From Coleofasciculaceae cyanobacterium (GTDB lineage Bacteria; Cyanobacteriota; Cyanobacteriia; Cyanobacteriales; Xenococcaceae): a DNA stretch of 64,000 nt. Shown here piece by piece: positions 11,281 to 46,456 of this stretch (position 1 is the first letter of the stretch; the number at the start of each line of letters is the position of its first letter). The stretch covers positions 62,001 to 126,000 of the forward strand of contig DATNPK010000092.1 in the NCBI GenBank assembly GCA_036703275.1, written 5' to 3'. A program made the translations under genes and the position numbers. Below the pieces are notes generated by a model, which saw only the letters and a list, made by a program, of their open reading frames with translations, was not told the origin of the DNA and did not search any database.

Positions 11281-11313
11281 CAATATTTCTTAAGTAATAA
11301 AATTTGTGCGGTC

Positions 11314-11480
11314 ATGAATTCTTTAGTTTCTGTTATCATTCCTTGTTATAATTCCGAACGCTGGATTACCGAAGCGATCGACAGTATTTTAGCTCAAACT
11401 TATCCAAATATTGAAATAATTGTTGTCGATGATGATTCGACAGATTCTAGTTTATAAATTATCAAAACTTATGGCGATCA
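11314..11480 (+). pseudogene. Truncated 5' copy of the GT2 gene at 12437
   Basis: Near-identical to the start of the GT2 gene at 12437, including the leader before the ATG. It codes 47 residues ([20 protein letters not shown]...) and stops at TAA 11455-11457, where the intact copy has GAA. Homology continues past the stop to about 11480 (TTATGGCGATC) and then ends abruptly 28 bp before the FkbM gene. A few substitutions distinguish the copies. It is a remnant of duplication linked to insertion of the methyltransferase gene. Confidence 0.9.
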
Positions 11481-11507: not shown

Positions 11508-12404
11508 ATGATTAAGCTTATTAAAATATTACGCAAACTAAACTTACTCGATTGCTTTAGTTTATTGAAAAATATTAAAATTAATAATACTCAAATAAAA
11601 ATCCCACTAATTAATGGTTTAGGTTATGATTTGTTGAATGCAGCACGTCGCGAATGTTGGCTAGACAATATTATTCAAAGTGCTTTGAAAACTAAGAAAG
11701 GAATATTTATTGATGTTGGAGTAAACCTAGGTCAGACTCTTTTAAAAGTAAAGTCTACTCAGTTAAATAATAACTATATTGGTTTTGAGCCAAATTCAAT
11801 TTGCTCTACCTATGTTAAAAAACTAATTAGTGTTAATAATTGGCATAATTGTCACATTATTCCTGTTGGTTTGGCAAATGAATCTTCTGTATTAAGTTTA
11901 TTCATGAACAATGATATAGACCCCTCAGCAAGTATTGCTCAAGATTTTAGAGATGAAACTTTCTATTCTTCTCATACCTATGTTCCCGTATTTCAAGGAG
12001 ATTATTTATTAAGTCAACTTGGGGTTAATTCAATTTCAGTTATTAAAATTGATGTAGAAGGAGCAGAACTTGAAGTAATTCAAGGTCTTCAAAACTCAAT
12101 AGCCAAGTATAATCCGTACATTTTGTGCGAAGTTCTTCCCGTTTACAATTCAAATACTACTCAAGTAAACTCAAGAAAAAGAAAACAAGATTTATTAGAA
12201 AATCTCATCAAAGAAAGTGGCTATAAAATCTACAGAATTATGCATGACGGCAAACTTATGGCTATAAATACAATTGGCGTGCATTCCGATCTTTCTATTT
12301 GCGAGTATATTTTTGTACCTGAAGCACATGAGGCTAATTTTTTCAAATCTTATTTATCTAATACTACCGAATATACAAATGAATATTCGGTAGTAACAAA
12401 CTAA
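11508..12404 (+). CDS. FkbM family SAM-dependent methyltransferase
   Basis: Probable O-methyltransferase modifying a sugar or chain end. The SAM-binding motif FIDVGVNLGQT is at 67-77 and the FkbM hallmark VIKIDVEGAELEVIQGL is near 181-197. 298 residues. The gene lies precisely between a truncated and a complete copy of one GT2 gene and lacks HIP1 octamers, which suggests transfer from elsewhere. If the exporter ATPase uses its C-terminal domain to read a capped chain end, this enzyme is one candidate for capping (inference). Confidence 0.88.
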   Translation: MIKLIKILRKLNLLDCFSLLKNIKINNTQIKIPLINGLGYDLLNAARRECWLDNIIQSALKTKKGIFIDVGVNLGQTLLKVKSTQLNNNYIGFEPNSICSTYVKKLISVNNWHNCHIIPVGLANESSVLSLFMNNDIDPSASIAQDFRDETFYSSHTYVPVFQGDYLLSQLGVNSISVIKIDVEGAELEVIQGLQNSIAKYNPYILCEVLPVYNSNTTQVNSRKRKQDLLENLIKESGYKIYRIMHDGKLMAINTIGVHSDLSICEYIFVPEAHEANFFKSYLSNTTEYTNEYSVVTN

Positions 12405-12436: not shown

Positions 12437-13393
12437 ATGAATTCTTTAGTTTCTGTTATAATTCCTTGTTATAATTCTGAACGCTGGATTAGCGAAGCGA
12501 TCGACAGTATTTTAGCTCAAACTTATCCAAATATTGAAATAATTGTTGTCGATGATGGTTCGACAGATTCTAGTTTAGAAATTATCAAAAGTTATGGCGA
12601 TCGCCTTAAATGGGTAACGGGAACAAACCAGGGTGGTAATGTCGCTCGCAATCGTGGTTTTCAATTAAGCAAAGGCAAATATATTCAGTGGTTAGATGCC
12701 GACGATTATTTATTACCAGAAAAAATTGCTCATCAAATCGAATTTTTAGCAACAAATAATTGTGATGTGGTTTATGGAGATTGGCAACATCAATACCATC
12801 AAGAAGATGGTAGTAATTCTTTGGGTAATATTAAACTAAGTGGCCAACATTTGGATACTTTAGAAGCTCTTTTGTCGGGCTGGTGGGCATCTCCAGCAGC
12901 ATATTTAATTAAGCGAAAAATAGTAATAGAAATTAATGGATGGGATGAGACTTTAAAAGCAGGACAAGATCGAGATTTTTGGATTAGAGTCGCGATCGCT
13001 CTTGCTAAATTTGTTTATCAACCTGGCTGCTATTCAATATATCGCCGTTATGGAAACGTGACAGTTTCTACTAAAAATTGTCAGCAATGGTGTGATAGTC
13101 ACGCTCAGATTTTAGAAAACGCTAGAGCTAGTTTAAAAGCTAAAAATAATTTACAAAATAAATATAAAAAAGCTTTGGCAAAATCACATTTTGCTTTAGC
13201 TAGAAACTACTTCGATCGCGATCGCAACTTGTATCAATATCACTTGAATTTAGCTAAAGAGCTAAACCCAGATTTTCGACCCAGTGAAAGCGGTTTATAT
13301 AACCTGTATGCTAAATTTTTGGGTTTTACCCTAGCAGATTATCTGGCTAGCTGGAAACGCAAAGTTAAGACCGTTGCTACTTTTAATTCATAA
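12437..13393 (+). CDS. Glycosyltransferase family 2
   Basis: GT-A glycosyltransferase of 318 residues. [20 protein letters not shown] opens the nucleotide-binding fold, VVDDGSTDSSLEII follows at about 37-50, and QWLDADDYLLP carries the DXD metal site near 92-96. GQDRDFWIRVAIAL is the second acidic motif. The first 47 codons and 27 bp of leader are duplicated upstream at 11287-11480. HIP1 octamers occur inside this gene (12597, 12993, 13218), unlike the FkbM gene before it, supporting the view that it is the resident gene and the methyltransferase the newcomer. Confidence 0.92.
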   Translation: MNSLVSVIIPCYNSERWISEAIDSILAQTYPNIEIIVVDDGSTDSSLEIIKSYGDRLKWVTGTNQGGNVARNRGFQLSKGKYIQWLDADDYLLPEKIAHQIEFLATNNCDVVYGDWQHQYHQEDGSNSLGNIKLSGQHLDTLEALLSGWWASPAAYLIKRKIVIEINGWDETLKAGQDRDFWIRVAIALAKFVYQPGCYSIYRRYGNVTVSTKNCQQWCDSHAQILENARASLKAKNNLQNKYKKALAKSHFALARNYFDRDRNLYQYHLNLAKELNPDFRPSESGLYNLYAKFLGFTLADYLASWKRKVKTVATFNS

Positions 13394-39558: not shown

Positions 39559-39590
39559 CTGTAGTCTGTCAGGTTGTAATTGATAGGTTT

Positions 39591-39722
39591 AAAATCGTTA
39601 ATTTCTTCAATTAGATTATCCTAATCCATGTCTTCTAGTTTTCTGTTTTGAATCGCATTGATAATCTTTTGTCGCCAAAGATTTAAATCTTGATGATAAA
39701 GCTGTTCCAGTTGATTACTCAT
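39591..39722 (-). pseudogene. DUF29 family gene, broken and truncated
   Basis: Minus strand, ATG at 39722: MSNQLEQLYHQDLNLWRQKI... reads 33 residues to TAG (39623-39621), in the place of the tryptophan of the family motif MDWDNLIEEI, then continues DNLIEEINDF before homology ends. This is the N-terminus of the cyanobacterial DUF29 family (usually about 150 residues). It begins 18 nt after the third mfd 3' copy. Confidence 0.8.
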
Positions 39723-39740
39723 CGCTTATCTCTCTTGTAT

Positions 39741-39828
39741 TTAAACCAATTCTAATTCAGGTAAAGCCTTGTGAATTGTCCCTAACCAGTCAATCAAATT
39801 ATCCAATTGCTTTTGAGGCTTCGCAATC
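39741..39828 (-). repeat. Third copy of the mfd 3' end (28 codons)
   Basis: Reads AKPQKQLDNLIDWLGTIHK then ALPELELV and TAA, in the same orientation as mfd, whose own end is [19 protein letters not shown] plus ALPELELV. The 14-mer TGCTTTTGAGGCTT (39808-39821) is identical in all three copies. Confidence 0.92.
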
Positions 39829-39906
39829 TAGAAATTATTCCTCTAGCAATAGAATTGTTAAGCAAGATTAAGGATAAAAGGGAAAAGCAAGGATTAAAAA
39901 AGATAT

Positions 39907-40029
39907 TTACGCTATTTTGAATAAGTTTTTTGCTAAATAAGTTTTACACTCTAAATAGAGATCGCCTTGATTGCCAAATAATTCGATCGCTTTGATTGGA
40001 TTGAAATCGGCAAAAGCTTGATAATTAGT
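39907..40029 (-). pseudogene. Unrecognised coding remnant
   Basis: A 40-codon open segment bounded by stops and without a start codon: NYQAFADFNPIKAIELFGN and then QGDLYLECKTYLAKNLFKIA before TAA. The amino-acid make-up looks coding, with a HIP1-related GCGATCG inside, but I do not recognise the family. The rest of 39829-40123 shows nothing. Confidence 0.35.
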
Positions 40030-40123
40030 TTATTTGGTGGGCAAAAGTTATTCTGTAATGATAATTTGCTGGTGTTATTTTTTTCCACCTACATGCGATC
40101 GCTCTAATTTTTTGTTGATAAAA

Positions 40124-41887
40124 TCAATCATCATCTTGGGCGATAATTCTTAAAGATTGATCGACAGTATCTATAGAGTCTATTTGCTCGTTTCCATAGC
40201 CACCTATCTCTTCAAACTTTTTGGCAGTTACTAGTAGTCTAGAATTATACGAACCTACTGCTTTGTTGTATGTTTTAACTGTTTCGTCGAGTTTTTTGCG
40301 AAGAGTATCCAAATGGTTAGCAAATACGGTAAACCTGTCATATAGTTCTCGACCTAAATTACCTATTTCTTGAGTATTTCTAGCAATTTGTTCTTGTCTC
40401 CACCCGTATTCTATAGTTCTTAGTAACGTAATTAATGTAGTTGGAGTAGCAAGAATTACCTTTCTTTCTATTCCATATTCTATTAAACTAGGATCTTGCT
40501 GTAAGGCTGCACTAAAGAAAACTTCACCTGGCAAAAACATAACTACAAATTCAGGCGTGTTATCAAATTGTATCCAATAGTTTTTGGAACTAAGTTGATT
40601 GATATGACTGCGAATATGTTTGGCATGATTTTTTAAACAGTTAATTTTCTCCGATTCTTCTTCCATCTCTAATGCTTCTAAATATGCTTTTAAAGGAGCT
40701 TTAGAGTCTACAATTACCTTTTTTTGGCTAGGAAGCGTCACAATTAAATCTGGTCTTTGATTGCGACCCTCTTCTGTAACTACAGTTTCTTGTATGGTAA
40801 AGTCACAATGTTCTTGCATTCCTGAAATTTCTACTACGCGCCTTAGCTGGACTTCTCCCCATCTCCCACGAACTATAGGCTGTCGTAATGCTTGAGTTAA
40901 ATTAGCAGTTTCAGATTGAAGCCTGTACATGAGTGCTGCTTGAGATTGAAGCTGTTCTGAAATTTGTCCTTTATCTCTTGACCAAGCATTATCTGTATTA
41001 TTTAATTTTTTGTCAAATGCTTCTAAAGATCTGTTTAATGGTGAAATTAAGTCGCTAATTGCTTGATGTTTGGCATCAATTTTATGTTGAGATGTTTGAT
41101 ATATATTTTCAAACGTAGCTTTGGCAGCTTGTAAAAATTGTTGATTATTATTTTGCAAAGCTCTCGAAGATAGAGATTCAAAAGCGTTAGTCAATTTTTG
41201 TTCTGCATTTTGAAGTAGCTCTATTTTTTCTTGTGTTGATTTTCGTTCTTCTTCTAACTTAGTTTTTAAACTAGATAATTCTTCTTTAAATCTAGCTTTT
41301 TCTAACTTTAGTTGTTCGTTTTGTTGTTTAAAATCAGTATTTTCTTGTTTCAGTTCTTCTATGTATTCTCTTTGAGCATTAGCTTCAGCACTCATTTTAT
41401 GAGCCTGTTCAATTTCTCGTTTATAATCCGTGATTTCTAAATTTATCTGATTTAGATCGTTTTCTAATTTAATAATTATTTGATTATGATGTTGTTTTTG
41501 ACTTTCTAAATCTGCTGCTAGTCTAGATATATTTTCTTTATGAGCAGTATTTTCATTTCTAAGGCGTTGATTATTCTCAGTTTCAACTAACAATCTTGCT
41601 TCCAAATTTGATGTTTTCTCTAGCTTTGCATCTGCATCACTAGATTTTTTGATTGTGTTGCGAATTTCCTGTTCATTTTCTTTTATGGTTTTTTCTAGTT
41701 GTTGAATTATAGTTTGTTTCTGCTCGTTTTCTTCTAATAGTTTTTCTCTCTGTGAGTTAAAAAGATTAGCTTTTTCGTCACTTGCCTGTTTTTGAAATTT
41801 GATAGTTTGTATTTGCGATCGCGTTATCAACCAAACACTTCCTCCACCGAGAATTAATCCCACAATTAGCCCAAATATAACTTCCAT
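40124..41887 (-). CDS. rmuC: DNA recombination protein RmuC
   Basis: RmuC proteins limit inversions at short inverted repeats and have a PD-(D/E)XK nuclease-like core. Residues 3-22 are a membrane anchor (IFGLIVGLILGGGSVWLI), 25-235 a long coiled coil rich in Glu, Lys and Gln, and 250-560 the RmuC domain: RGRWGEVQLRRVVEISGM, RPDLIVTLPSQKKVIVDSKA (with the acid/K nuclease motif) and FLPGEVFFSAAL. 587 residues. It lies between two partial copies of the mfd 3' end, so it may have arrived with one of them. In a genome so rich in short inverted repeats its presence is fitting. Confidence 0.93.
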   Translation of the reverse strand: MEVIFGLIVGLILGGGSVWLITRSQIQTIKFQKQASDEKANLFNSQREKLLEENEQKQTIIQQLEKTIKENEQEIRNTIKKSSDADAKLEKTSNLEARLLVETENNQRLRNENTAHKENISRLAADLESQKQHHNQIIIKLENDLNQINLEITDYKREIEQAHKMSAEANAQREYIEELKQENTDFKQQNEQLKLEKARFKEELSSLKTKLEEERKSTQEKIELLQNAEQKLTNAFESLSSRALQNNNQQFLQAAKATFENIYQTSQHKIDAKHQAISDLISPLNRSLEAFDKKLNNTDNAWSRDKGQISEQLQSQAALMYRLQSETANLTQALRQPIVRGRWGEVQLRRVVEISGMQEHCDFTIQETVVTEEGRNQRPDLIVTLPSQKKVIVDSKAPLKAYLEALEMEEESEKINCLKNHAKHIRSHINQLSSKNYWIQFDNTPEFVVMFLPGEVFFSAALQQDPSLIEYGIERKVILATPTTLITLLRTIEYGWRQEQIARNTQEIGNLGRELYDRFTVFANHLDTLRKKLDETVKTYNKAVGSYNSRLLVTAKKFEEIGGYGNEQIDSIDTVDQSLRIIAQDDD

Positions 41888-42045
41888 AACTAAACTAGAT
41901 TGAAATAAAACAAAACTACTTTTGAAGCAGCTATCTAAATAGTTCCCTTGTAAAAGGCTTAAATTAATAAAAGTTACAAATCGTATTTTGTTTCTGATAA
42001 TAATTCGAGGCAGACAAGATAATCCTTTGTGTCTGTGGGTGAAAC

Positions 42046-42186
42046 TTAAACCAACTCCAACTCAGATAAAGCCTTGTCAATTGTACCCAACCACTCAATC
42101 AAATTATATAATTGCTTTTGAGGCTTAACTATACCTAAACCCCGCACGATGACTTTTTTTGGTGCATAGACAAAACGAGATAAAAG
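42046..42186 (-). repeat. Second copy of the mfd 3' end (about 46 codons)
   Basis: Reads [37 protein letters not shown] and KALSELELV to TAA (42048-42046) with no frameshift; mfd itself has [11 protein letters not shown]... and the same pattern. Many third-position differences separate it from mfd, so it is not a very recent copy or came from a diverged strain. It begins 1-2 bp after the xisI remnant. Between it and rmuC (41888-42045) no gene is seen. Confidence 0.93.
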
Positions 42187-42187
42187 T

Positions 42188-42521
42188 TTAACTGACTGCA
42201 AAATCAGTATATTGTCTAATATCGGCAGGATGAAAACCCAACACTATTTTATCTTTAGAAATTCCTGCGTTTACTAATTCATTTGCAATACCATATTCTG
42301 TACCATCGCGATGAATCCAGATTTTGTTATCAATAATTTCTAAGTGAATAACGCAGCCATGTACTCTTTTTTTTTTGCCATCCCGAAGTCATAACCAAGT
42401 AATTATTTTGGTCATTGCTAATAATTAACTTTGACTCTATATTTCCTCGCGAGTAGGGAATAGATACATAATCAGTTAAGATATTTTTAATTTTTTCTCG
42501 ATATTCTTCTATGGTATCCAT
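42188..42521 (-). pseudogene. xisI: xisI-like gene with +1 frameshift in an A-run
   Basis: XisI family (fdxN-element excision controlling factor). ATG at 42521: MDTIEEYREKIKNILTDYVS... reads into a run of ten A (plus strand T-run 42367-42376), where the frame shifts and stops after 63 residues. With nine A the frame continues [54 protein letters not shown] to TAA 42190-42188, the full family length of about 110. Its ATG overlaps the expected xisH stop as TAATG. Confidence 0.85.
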
Positions 42522-42925
42522 TAAATTATTTCCTCGCGAGCGGCATCGAAAACAATTAATTTAAAAGTTTTTTATTTAAAAGAATTTGACCAACAGGTTC
42601 TATAAATATATCTTCAAGAGTAGTTTCTCTGATAGCTAGATATAATATACGCTCTGGCTTTGTTTCTCCTATGATATCCAAATACAAAGTATATTGACCC
42701 AACGCTTGTTGTAGATCGGCTACTTGCGAGTTACCAACAAAGCTTTTTATTTCTACAGCTATTTTTTCACTACCTTTGTGTGCTGCAATTAATTTTTCTG
42801 CGCCAAGATCGACATATAAATCTTTATTGCCCCATTGTTAATTTCAGCGGATCGTTGGTAATGCTCTACCCGTCTTTAATTAGAGCATTTTTAACATTGT
42901 TGTGAAAAATATCTTTTGCTGGCAT
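42522..42925 (-). pseudogene. xisH: xisH-like gene with nonsense and frameshift lesions
   Basis: XisH family (nuclease-like, partner of XisI). ATG at 42925, 3 nt after the mfd stop: MPAKDIFHNNVKNALIKDG then TAG where the family has Trp (DGW), followed by SITNDPLKLTMG, one extra base, then KDLYVDLGAEKLIAAHKGSE, KIAVEIKSFVGNSQVADLQQ, ALGQYTLYLD and so on. A one-base loss near 42560 shifts the last VFDAAREEI segment. At least three lesions, so non-functional. Confidence 0.87.
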
Positions 42926-42928
42926 AGT

Positions 42929-45900
42929 CTACACTAATTCTAATTCGGGTAAAGCCTTGTGAATTGTACCCAACCATTCAATTAAATCATTCAACTGCTT
43001 TTGAGGCTTAACAATACCCAAACCCCGCACAATAACCTTCTTCGGCGCATAAACAAAACGCGATCGCAAATGCTTAGGTAAATTCTCCGCCATCAAATTC
43101 CAAGCAGGTTCAGCCATCGGAGTTTCTAAGACAATGTTGGTTTGTCCTTCGGGTTTGATACGAGAGAAGCCAATCGCCTTAGCAATCTGTTTTAGTTCCA
43201 TTACCTGGATTAGCTGCTGGGTTGCTGAAGGAATTGCACCATAGCGATCTTCCCATTCGGCTGCAATTTGGACTAGTTCTTTTTTCGAGGTAGCGGTAGC
43301 AACAGCGCGGTAAGCATCCATTTTTTGTTCGGGATCGGCAATATAGTTGGCAGGAATAAAAGCAGTGAGTTTTAAATCTATTTGGGTATCTTCTACCTTG
43401 GGTATTTCTTGCCCTTGGATTTCTTGAATCGACTCTTGCAGCATCTCCATATAGAGATCGAAGCCGATTTGCGTCATTTGTCCCGACTGTTCTGCACCCA
43501 GAAGACTACCTACCCCGCGTATTTCCATATCCCTAGTTGCTAGTTGATAACCCGAACCGAGTTGGCTAAATTCTTGTAAAGCGCGGAGTCTTTTACGGGC
43601 AAGATCTGATAAAGTCTGTTTACTGGGGTATAGTAACCAGGCGTGTGCTTGAGTCCCAGAGCGCCCAACTCTGCCTCTTAACTGATACAGTTGGGATAAG
43701 CCGAATTTCTGGGAATCTTCGACGATAATGGTATTGACGCGGGGGATATCTAAACCTGACTCGATGATGGTGGTGCAGACAAGCAAATCTGATTCGCCGT
43801 TGCTAAAGGTAAGCATGGTTGACTCTAATTCTGACTCTGGCATTTGCCCGTGAGCGATCGCAATTTTCATGCCCGGAATCATTTCCCGTAGCTGCGCGCT
43901 AACTTCTTCAATTCCTTCTACTCTGGGAACAACATAAAATATCTGTCCACCCCGATCTAATTCATTACGAATCGCATTGCGGATCACTTCAGGATTATAA
44001 GGAGAAAGATGGGTTTTAATCGGACGACGAGACGGCGGAGGAGTAGTAATTAAACTCATTTCCCGAATTCCCGACAGAGACATATATAGGGTGCGGGGAA
44101 TAGGAGTAGCCGAGAGAGTTAAGACATCTACCTGTGTTTTGAAGGCTTTGATTTTTTCTTTTTGGTTTACTCCGAAGCGTTGTTCTTCATCAACTACCAA
44201 CATACCTAGATCTTTGAACTTTACATCCTTCCCTAATAGCTGTTGTGTACCCACCACCACATCTAATTCCCCTGTTGCTAGCCGCTGTAAAATTTCTTTT
44301 TTCTCCGAGGGAGTGCGGAAACGATTTAATAAACCGACGTTGATGGGATAGGGGGCAAATCTTTCTTTGAAAGTGTGATAATGCTGTTGCGTCAAAATAG
44401 TTGTTGGCGCAAGTACGGCTACCTGTTTATTACCACTGGTAATTACTTTAAAAATTGCCCTGATAGCTACTTCCGTTTTACCAAAACCAACATCACCACA
44501 AACTAATCGATCCATCGGGCGATCACTTTCTAAATCTATTTTAATATCTTGGGTAGCTTTGAGTTGATCTGGGGTAGGTTGATAAGGAAAAGAATCTTCT
44601 AATTCTTGTTGCCAGGGATTATCTGGAGGATAGGCATAACCTTCTAGTTTGGAGCGTTTGGCATAGAGTTTTAATAAATCTACCGCTAACTTTTTAATAT
44701 TTTTTTTAACTCTTGACTTAGTTTTTGACCAAGACTGAGTTGCCATTTTATTTAATTCTGGCGGACGTTTTTCAGTTTGCCGAAATCGAGACAGCATATC
44801 TAAAGAATCGGCAGGAACTCTTAACGTACCGTCGGCATATTGAACTACTAAATATTCGCGGTGAACTAATGTTTCTAACTCTATAAATTTACCCAAGCCG
44901 TGATGTTTATGAACTACATAATCACCTGGGCGTAATTTATTAAGATCGACTTTTTTAGAAGTAGCGCGACGGCGTTTACGAATGTAACCAGCAGTAGCTA
45001 AAGTTTGTTGTCCAAAAAATTCTTTATCAGTAACAACTACAATGCGATAGGTAGGTAAAATAAACCCTTCTAACTCCGCTAAACCCGAATATTTTACTGC
45101 TACTGCGGTACTCTGAATTTGAGCTTTTTCAATTGCCCGAAAGTCTTGTGGATTTGGTACAAACTGCACTGGACAATCATGTTCTTCTAATAGCGAAGCA
45201 GAACGACTGGGTTGGGCTGAAACTAACCATGCCTGATACTTTTCTAGCGTCATCCCGCTGTATATTTCTCGCTTACCTCTAAGAATTGCAGCTAGTTTAG
45301 CAAATTGATGCGGCGTGGTAGGAATCGGACGTGCCTGTAAATTGTGTACCGACACCGCGTCAGGATTAGCTATGTCTAAACGGGGTTTTGCTTCCGCAAT
45401 TTCTGATAAATAAATGCAGTTAAAGTTATTACTTTTAGCTATACAAGTTTGAAACTCAGCGTGTATTTTGGGCAGACTTAATGCTAAACTTTCCCATTGA
45501 AATTGAGCCAATTCGATCCAGCGATCGCTATGGGCCTGACACTGTTCTAATTCATCAATGGCAATTAAAGTATTATCAGGTAAATAATCTAGAAGTGAAG
45601 CAGTTTGTTGAAAAGCAATACCTAAAAACCGCTTCATTCCTTCAGGAGGATTACCTTCTAGTAAAGCTTCTAATTCTGCATCATCTAAATAGCTTTCAAT
45701 ACTCTTACCGCTTTCTAAAATACTGTTAGCAATAATGTTACTAAAAGAAGTTGGCGTTAATAATAACCGCGGCAGCTTATCTAAAGATCTTTGACTAGCA
45801 GGATCGAACTCTTTTATTTGTTCTAATTCATCCCCAAACCAATCCAGTCTGACGGGTAGTTCAGCCGAAACGGGGAAAATATCGACAATATCCCCTCGTC

Positions 45901-46456
45901 TACTCCATTGTCCTTCGGTTTCTACTAAAGATACCCGTTCATAACCCAATCTAGCTAGAGATTCATCCAACTGTTTTGAGGTCAATTCCATTTTAGGGTA
46001 AAGCGTCAGACAATAAGACTGAAATACTTCTGGGGGTGGTAAATGAGGCTGGAGCGATCGCTCTGTAGCTACAATAGCTATAGGCTGATTATTATGTACT
46101 TTTCCCTTTTCCCTACCCTCTTGACTGATGACTGATAGTACCTGCATCTGTCCCCAAGTAATCTCTGATTCGGGGTCAAAAGGGTCATAGGGACTCGCTT
46201 CGGAGGTAGGATAAAAATTTACCGTCTGCCACCCCATCGCCTCTAATTGGGCAGCCCAACGCCCGCCTTCTTCTAGGGTAGGACATATCACTAATAAATT
46301 CTTTGCTTCGGCTTTTGCCAAACTAGAACTAACAATACCCTTGGGTAAGCGGGGTATACCGTTGAGTAGTAAAGATTGTCCTTTGTCTAGTTTAGTTATT
46401 AGTTCTTTAGTCAAAGGCGATTTCTCGATCGTCCGTACTACTGATGCAAAAGCCAT
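42929..46456 (-). CDS. mfd: Transcription-repair coupling factor Mfd
   Basis: Displaces RNA polymerase stalled at DNA lesions and recruits UvrA. 1175 residues: UvrB-like N-terminal module (1-400), polymerase-binding domain [20 protein letters not shown] (about 507-526), helicase with [13 protein letters not shown] (Walker A, about 656-668) and VVDEEQRFG, motif [21 protein letters not shown], and the C-terminal TRCF domain. Full length and intact. The last 28-46 codons are repeated downstream at 42046 and 39741. A decayed xisH starts 3 nt after its stop, where no natural gap is left. Confidence 0.97.

Follow-up and report, generated by a model that had tools for sequence, protein, structure and literature searches.

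Genomic islands and cis-mobilizable (CIME-like) elements that settle in gene ends regenerate the end of the target gene, displace the old end and accumulate in tandem. Integron arrays consist of cassettes of one or two genes, many of them toxin-antitoxin or defence-like, separated by repeated attC sites. Here we describe a locus that shares features with both, in a 64,000-nt stretch of a Coleofasciculaceae cyanobacterium genome (contig DATNPK010000092.1; the whole stretch is called the window below), where the 3' end of the gene mfd is repeated behind the gene and brackets small gene cassettes. Like the islands, the mfd arrays show a regenerated end, a displaced old end and tandem accretion, but their cassettes are tiny, their break is set by the highly iterated palindrome 1 (HIP1) and no linked Phage_integrase match was found. 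Like integron arrays, they are made of cassettes of one or two genes set apart by a repeat, but that repeat is a gene end and not attC, both gene edges are used, and the array contigs of the seven genomes searched gave no integrase match. What is new here is that displaced gene ends are mostly cut at HIP1, an 8-base palindrome.

Three further systems bear on the locus. According to the accessible text of PMC4390886, HIP1 (GCGATCGC) is over-represented in many cyanobacteria while its significance is little known; the same text cites evidence of site-specific recombination at HIP1 (a Synechococcus PCC 7002 plasmid and a PCC 7942/E. coli excision) and an SDR5 module inserted between HIP1 bases 3 and 4. 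These events and ours take place at GCGATCGC, and the SDR5 insertion point is where several displaced ends begin; however, the cited cases concern plasmids, excision and a small repeat module, whereas here cassettes are gained at the edges of conserved genes. Mobile open reading frames (ORFs) of fungal mitochondria have produced gene hybrids in atp6 of Allomyces macrogynus and in atp6, atp9, cox2 and nad3 of Glomus sp. In these, as the available part of PMC3630166 has it, a gene body with a foreign C-terminal part is followed by the mobile ORF and then by the native C-terminal part, now displaced; these ends differ as if they came from different species. The order of foreign gene end, ORF and displaced end is found at mfd by analogy, though our tree does not say which end is foreign. 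The fungal ORFs encode LAGLIDADG or GIY-YIG endonucleases in that description, whereas the mfd arrays carry diverse cargo, use both gene edges and break at a genome-wide palindrome. Homology-facilitated illegitimate recombination, as presented in the accessible part of PMC3240628, adds foreign DNA by one homologous and one illegitimate join, as would be the case here in the reading we favour; the difference is that, at mfd, a single defined palindrome would be the place of the illegitimate join. Use of a 5' edge has a parallel too, since dusA genomic islands target the 5' end of their gene (PMC4482086, available part). In titles and abstracts of the open-licence literature, we found no report of a cassette site at mfd or of HIP1-bounded cassette gain.

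All positions follow the numbering of the window, whose genome is G000; other G and L codes denote compared genomes and loci. The mfd locus contains the following features:

42929..46456, minus strand: mfd, intact, 1175 codons; the last 45 codons would be the incoming end in the reading we favour
43060..43067: the mfd HIP1 (GCGATCGC), some 136 nt upstream of the stop codon; the displaced ends of relatives begin inside it
42559..42925, minus strand: xisH remnant in two pieces
42190..42521, minus strand: xisI remnant, an ORF at 42330-42521 plus a decayed tail (judged by eye)
42047..42181, minus strand: displaced mfd 3' end, copy 2, beginning ATC(T)CGTTTTG, that is, inside HIP1
40124..41887, minus strand: rmuC, intact, PF02646, 587 aa; the second cassette
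39742..39827, minus strand: displaced mfd 3' end, copy 3, with a decayed 5' part
39588..39723, minus strand: broken DUF29-like reading frame after copy 3, read from the sequence

An ungapped repeat search with copy 2 (42047-42181) as the reference gave three 135-nt mfd-end copies, the other two at 42930-43064 (82%) and 39742-39876 (64%). At the protein level, copy 2 corresponds to the last 46 mfd codons with 89% identity, and copy 3 to the last 30 with 80% identity and one TAG. These searches bore out the claim of the initial annotation that the mfd 3' end is present three times and brackets two cassettes. The identical 14-mer that it placed at 39808, 42113 and 42996 is there as well (0.05 matches with at most one mismatch were expected by chance), and xisH does start 3 nt past the mfd stop. 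By contrast, xisI does not end 1-2 bp before copy 2 as had been stated; the mfd-derived part starts approximately 7-10 nt past the xisI stop. Beyond these three places, no mfd-end copies were found in a search of the whole assembly (116 contigs, E <= 10). The first cassette is decayed: one of the two xisH pieces contains stops, and the longest xisI frame has 63 aa versus 111 aa in G002. The DUF29-like frame was judged by eye to resemble the ORF behind mfd in G011, a search with the piece itself not having been run. The start of copy 3 is not informative because its 5' part has decayed.

Among the 27 genomes of the window's family (f1), 25 have a matching mfd end. Seven of the 25 carry extra mfd 3' ends (G000, G002, G003, G006, G022, G025 and G001, the last one weak and on another contig), and displaced mfd 5' ends occur in three family genomes (G002, G004 and G009). 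An order-wide draw of 388 genomes contained 13 with at least two mfd-end matches (E <= 0.01), 7 of them outside the family. In five of these seven (G164, G269, G355, G377 and G387; four genomes of family f33 and one of f13), there is a displaced end on the mfd strand, 0.7 to 7 kb past the gene; counts in other families are lower bounds because the query came from the window's family. The second match in the other two, G062 and G084, is weak and located elsewhere in the genome; that of G084 lies at C1:2452241-2452342, far from mfd. The idea that extra mfd ends mark an insertion hotspot is thereby confirmed and widened beyond the window: mfd is a recurrent cassette site in family f1 and in two other families. 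The initial annotation had proposed to list what follows mfd in relatives, and would have given up its idea if the same three copies recurred everywhere with unvarying cassettes. Instead, both the cassettes and the copy numbers differ between relatives.

The cargo is varied. Directly behind real or displaced mfd ends we found xisHI in G000 and G002 (and a remnant in G012), Uma2 in G001 and, after a DUF120-like gene, in G006, Argonaute in G002, G003 and G004, and DUF29 in G022. Pfam was run on one example each, namely Uma2, XisH, XisI and PAZ_3 Argonaute, all four from G002, the DUF120-like protein of G003 and DUF29 of G022, the others being named by likeness. Outside the family, HicAB-like, ParE-like and PIN-like pairs, named by reading alone, are among the cargo. 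HigB-like and helix-turn-helix proteins lie between the displaced and intact mfd 5' ends of G002 and G004 (L034 and L044; Pfam was run on the G004 pair only). In addition, G002 has an array with four mfd ends (L033 5409-13202) approximately 25-32 kb from mfd on the opposite strand, so inversions are another possible use of mfd ends. In G006, the assembly is interrupted within an mfd end (L036 = C222:1-4106; L037 = the end of C237); repeated gene ends can therefore split draft genomes and hide such arrays.

The position of the breaks follows HIP1, a link that was not seen in the initial annotation. HIP1 occurs at a density of 64 per 64 kb in the window. Aligned displaced copies from five genomes start at one place, inside the GCGATCGC of mfd. 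With a sensitive search in family f1, 8 of 12 displaced mfd 3' ends were found to start at the mfd HIP1 (relative positions -8 to -3); the 12 leave out the contig-end piece of G006 (L036), and two of the eight (G002 e1 and G006 e1) represent one common junction behind Uma2. HIP1 spans the break site in 19 of the 25 family mfd genes and is absent from G025, the copy of which starts at another position. The four f33 genomes have a single HIP1 within the final 600 nt of mfd, 323 nt before the stop; the corresponding site in G164, at 333 nt, is mutated in the gene and is HIP1 in the copy. All seven main displaced ends of the four f33 genomes and the f13 genome start at HIP1, 323-333 nt before the stop. 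Since the break lies at about 136 nt in family f1 and at 323-333 nt elsewhere, it moves with HIP1 and does not track a fixed mfd sequence.

The 5' edge of mfd mirrors the 3' edge. In G002, G004 and G009, a total of five displaced 5' ends stop at HIP1 or a one-base variant of it, at about codon 10. They account for five of the six matches outside mfd's own 5' end, the sixth (L047) lying elsewhere and looking like chance; a match of L061 to the mfd 5' end was not confirmed. Some displaced ends retain the whole palindrome and others only its gene-side part, for example ATCGC or GCGATC. This pattern is compatible with breakage or exchange inside HIP1, after which the gene body is rejoined in frame to a donor end and the old end to the far side of the cassette.

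Breaks at HIP1 are not confined to mfd. The displaced 3' ends of radA (L098) and devC (L095), each beside an intact xisHI, start at HIP1 or a one-base variant, and so does that of a gene of 394 aa (L060), which adjoins a pair with an MqsA-like protein (below the Pfam cut-off). In the window itself, a glycosyltransferase gene has a duplicated 5' end:

11285..11480, plus strand: displaced 5' end of the glycosyltransferase gene, ending inside HIP1 (after TATGGCGATC)
11508..12404, plus strand: FkbM-domain methyltransferase cassette (PF05050), between the displaced and intact glycosyltransferase ends
12437..13393, plus strand: intact glycosyltransferase family 2 gene, with HIP1 at 12597-12604

For radA, devC, L060 and the glycosyltransferase gene, the HIP1 used is the one nearest to the gene edge, by reading. 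We quantified the association in a partial-copy scan of 1696 ORFs; 3' fragments were looked for with 1648 of them and 5' fragments with 1508. When only the family, G044 and G052 were kept, with ORFs of at least 150 aa and breaks inside the gene, 21 non-redundant partial copies were left. In 10 of the 21, the break lies within 8 nt of a HIP1 in the gene (at most one mismatch), against 1.12 expected (p=1.5e-8). When HIP1 was counted in either gene or copy, the result was 11 of 21 against 2.12 expected (p=1e-6). After reduction to a single row per gene end, 6 of 10 breaks still fell at HIP1 (p=5.7e-6); this set leaves out three tandem paralogues, L228, L229 and L239 (the last of which had counted as a break at HIP1), and the further mfd rows of G003, G022, G025, G004, G009 and G024. 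Breakpoints at GCGATCGC above chance are what HIP1-directed recombination calls for. A protein-level scan of 514 ORFs gave nine C-end fragments (four of mfd, two of tandem xisI, one of ksgA and two in L060) and six N-end fragments.

The mfd ends have separate histories. In six copies, third codon positions hold 61-83% of the differences between the copy and its own mfd (p from 6.6e-7 to 0.004 against one third, the share expected for a dead duplicate), and in four further copies from family f33 they hold 59-66%. This excess indicates that the ends diverged within working mfd genes before they were joined. Copy 2 is 86-87% identical to the mfd genes of G002, G007 and G012 versus 82% to its own. 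Of the two ideas that the initial annotation offered, the stepwise uptake of DNA with diverged mfd ends is, by the third-codon test, the better one. In the tree of the ends that it also proposed, built on 132 nt, only the G022 copy grouped firmly, with its own mfd, and most of the tree was poorly resolved.

The other idea was an integrative element using the mfd 3' end as its attachment site. No Phage_integrase match was found on the array contigs of the seven genomes searched (some of them no longer than 4-9 kb; the search covered neither serine recombinases nor families f33 and f13), and a linked tyrosine integrase was rejected on this ground. Beside this, the 5' edge mirrors the 3' edge and the break follows HIP1. 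The regenerated gene end and displaced copy of an integrative element are present, but its single fixed core in the target gene is not, the cores differing between families and genes except for HIP1. Searches of viral, plasmid and phage collections confirmed no mfd ends; with E values of 3-6, the plasmid and phage matches look like chance. In place of the attachment-site idea, which is not supported, we put cassette gain bounded by HIP1, with no integrase linked to it; the initial interpretation as a whole is partly supported.

In the reading we favour, and consider probable with room for doubt, small cassettes were added one after another at a conserved gene's edge with no linked integrase, the incoming DNA being joined in register on the gene-body side and at HIP1 on the other. 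DNA of a related cyanobacterium would first arrive carrying the end of the same gene together with a neighbouring cassette. The recipient gene would be opened, or would exchange, at the GCGATCGC nearest that gene edge. On the side of the gene body, homologous recombination or a HIP1-to-HIP1 join would link donor and recipient in register, leaving the gene complete but with its end taken from the donor. On the other side, the end that the recipient gene had before, now bounded by HIP1, would be attached behind the cassette. Repeated rounds would lead to arrays in which the old ends accumulate and decay outward. In this sequence of events we infer the direction of displacement, the homologous step and the role of HIP1, whether as the site of a specific enzyme or simply as a short homology.

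A broader proposal gives cyanobacteria a genome-wide cassette system that works without an integrase, with HIP1 as its exchange point and a putative HIP1-specific cut-and-join activity. We put it forward tentatively, as a possibility against which the odds still lie. In such a system, toxin-antitoxin, xisHI and defence-like cassettes would settle at the edges of conserved genes, bring a regenerated edge and join at the nearest HIP1. If this were true, HIP1, whose function is unsettled, would gain a role in gene acquisition. A clear HIP1 rule for the joining of cassettes to conserved genes would make a role of HIP1 in horizontal gene gain directly testable. It also suggests a way of reading genomes, in which a gene edge that is displaced and cut at HIP1 reveals an earlier insertion together with its two gene ends and its cargo, and it suggests how toxin-antitoxin, xisHI and Argonaute genes may gain footholds without a linked integrase.

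Several observations count against the favoured reading. Four of the 12 family 3' copies (copy 3 of G000, G025, G001 and the 45-nt scrap L035), all short or decayed, do not start at HIP1, nor do two 37-nt mfd scraps in G377 and G269. At ksgA (L193) and at the L227 gene, the duplicated end does not break at HIP1, and the glycosyltransferase copy has no third-position excess (1, 3, 2). At xisHI loci outside the family (ORFs of at least 100 aa, tandem xisHI paralogues included), the excess at HIP1 is weak: breaks at a gene HIP1 numbered 4 of 25 against 1.49 expected (p=0.05), and breaks at HIP1 in gene or copy 6 of 25 against 2.55 (p=0.03). The tree of 132-nt ends does not show which mfd end is native, identity between related mfd genes has no jump at the site, and no enzyme for HIP1 joining was identified, no search aimed at such a gene having been made. 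Inserts hold fewer HIP1 than their flanks (29 seen versus 51.5 expected), but 14 of 22 inserts contain at least one, where fragments from complete digestion should contain none, so such fragments are not supported as the substrate.

Among the alternatives, the one that survives best ascribes the pattern to HIP1 being no more than a very common 8-bp homology. One-sided homology-facilitated illegitimate recombination, in which the free end comes to lie on HIP1 because any two HIP1 copies can pair, would then suffice with no HIP1-specific enzyme. The density of HIP1 in the window fits this, as does the whole HIP1 kept at many junctions (among them G002 e3, G022 e1, radA, L060 and the five mfd 5' copies, with at most one mismatch), and recombination of this kind is described for other bacteria in the accessible part of PMC3240628. 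However, copy 2 of G000, G003 e1, G387 and the glycosyltransferase copy keep only the gene-side part of HIP1, joined to a partner without HIP1, and we regard this alternative as rather unlikely, if a serious one.

In a second alternative, a cargo protein resembling a nuclease, XisH or another, works as a free-standing homing endonuclease: alleles lacking the cassette are cut, and the gene end that is carried along is the resistant allele. The architecture is that of the fungal mitochondrial mobile ORFs, as given in the available part of PMC3630166; Pfam calls Uma2 a putative restriction endonuclease, and flanking repeats are enriched at xisHI loci. Yet the same site or rule holds in cassettes where no such gene was seen, namely HigB-like pairs, the FkbM methyltransferase and other toxin-antitoxin-like pairs, and the differing cargo would need a common HIP1 specificity. 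XisH as the driver was rejected, as cargo without xisH obeys the same rule, and Pfam showed no homing endonuclease domain in the part of the cargo proteins that was scanned. We consider homing improbable.

It is still less probable that an integrase acting in trans uses the mfd 3' end as its attB, the arrays being elements that have lost their own integrase. The copies do share a precise start, the gene end is regenerated, and Phage_integrase genes are present elsewhere in all seven genomes searched. On the other side stand the array contigs of those genomes, which as said above gave no Phage_integrase match, the use of both mfd edges and of several unrelated genes, and a break that shifts between families together with HIP1. 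Finally, tandem duplication of the window's mfd end followed by decay, which would agree with the same strand and close spacing of the copies and had been named at the outset as one outcome that would overturn the hotspot idea, is rejected with near certainty by the third-position excess, which refutes it for the ten copies tested, and by the identity of copy 2 to the mfd genes of other genomes.

Beside mfd, we compared xisHI cassettes across the order. Direct repeats within 300 nt on both sides were found at 22 of 123 usable xisHI cassettes versus 4 of 181 control ORFs (p=2.5e-6), the controls being ORFs from loci L136-L215 while the xisHI loci are spread over the order. Three of the 22 positives (L093, L095 and L098) had prompted the test, and a single locus, L175, supplied four xisHI pairs. 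Many of the flanking repeats are ordinary intergenic repeats, so only the comparison with control ORFs was used. In L193 (1938-4821), xisHI lies between ksgA and ispE (names by reading), and a shared segment of the ksgA end and ispE start flanks it on both sides as a long target-like duplication, the ksgA break not being at HIP1. In L175, four xisHI pairs are packed into approximately 5 kb, and the similar spacers between them hold HIP1.

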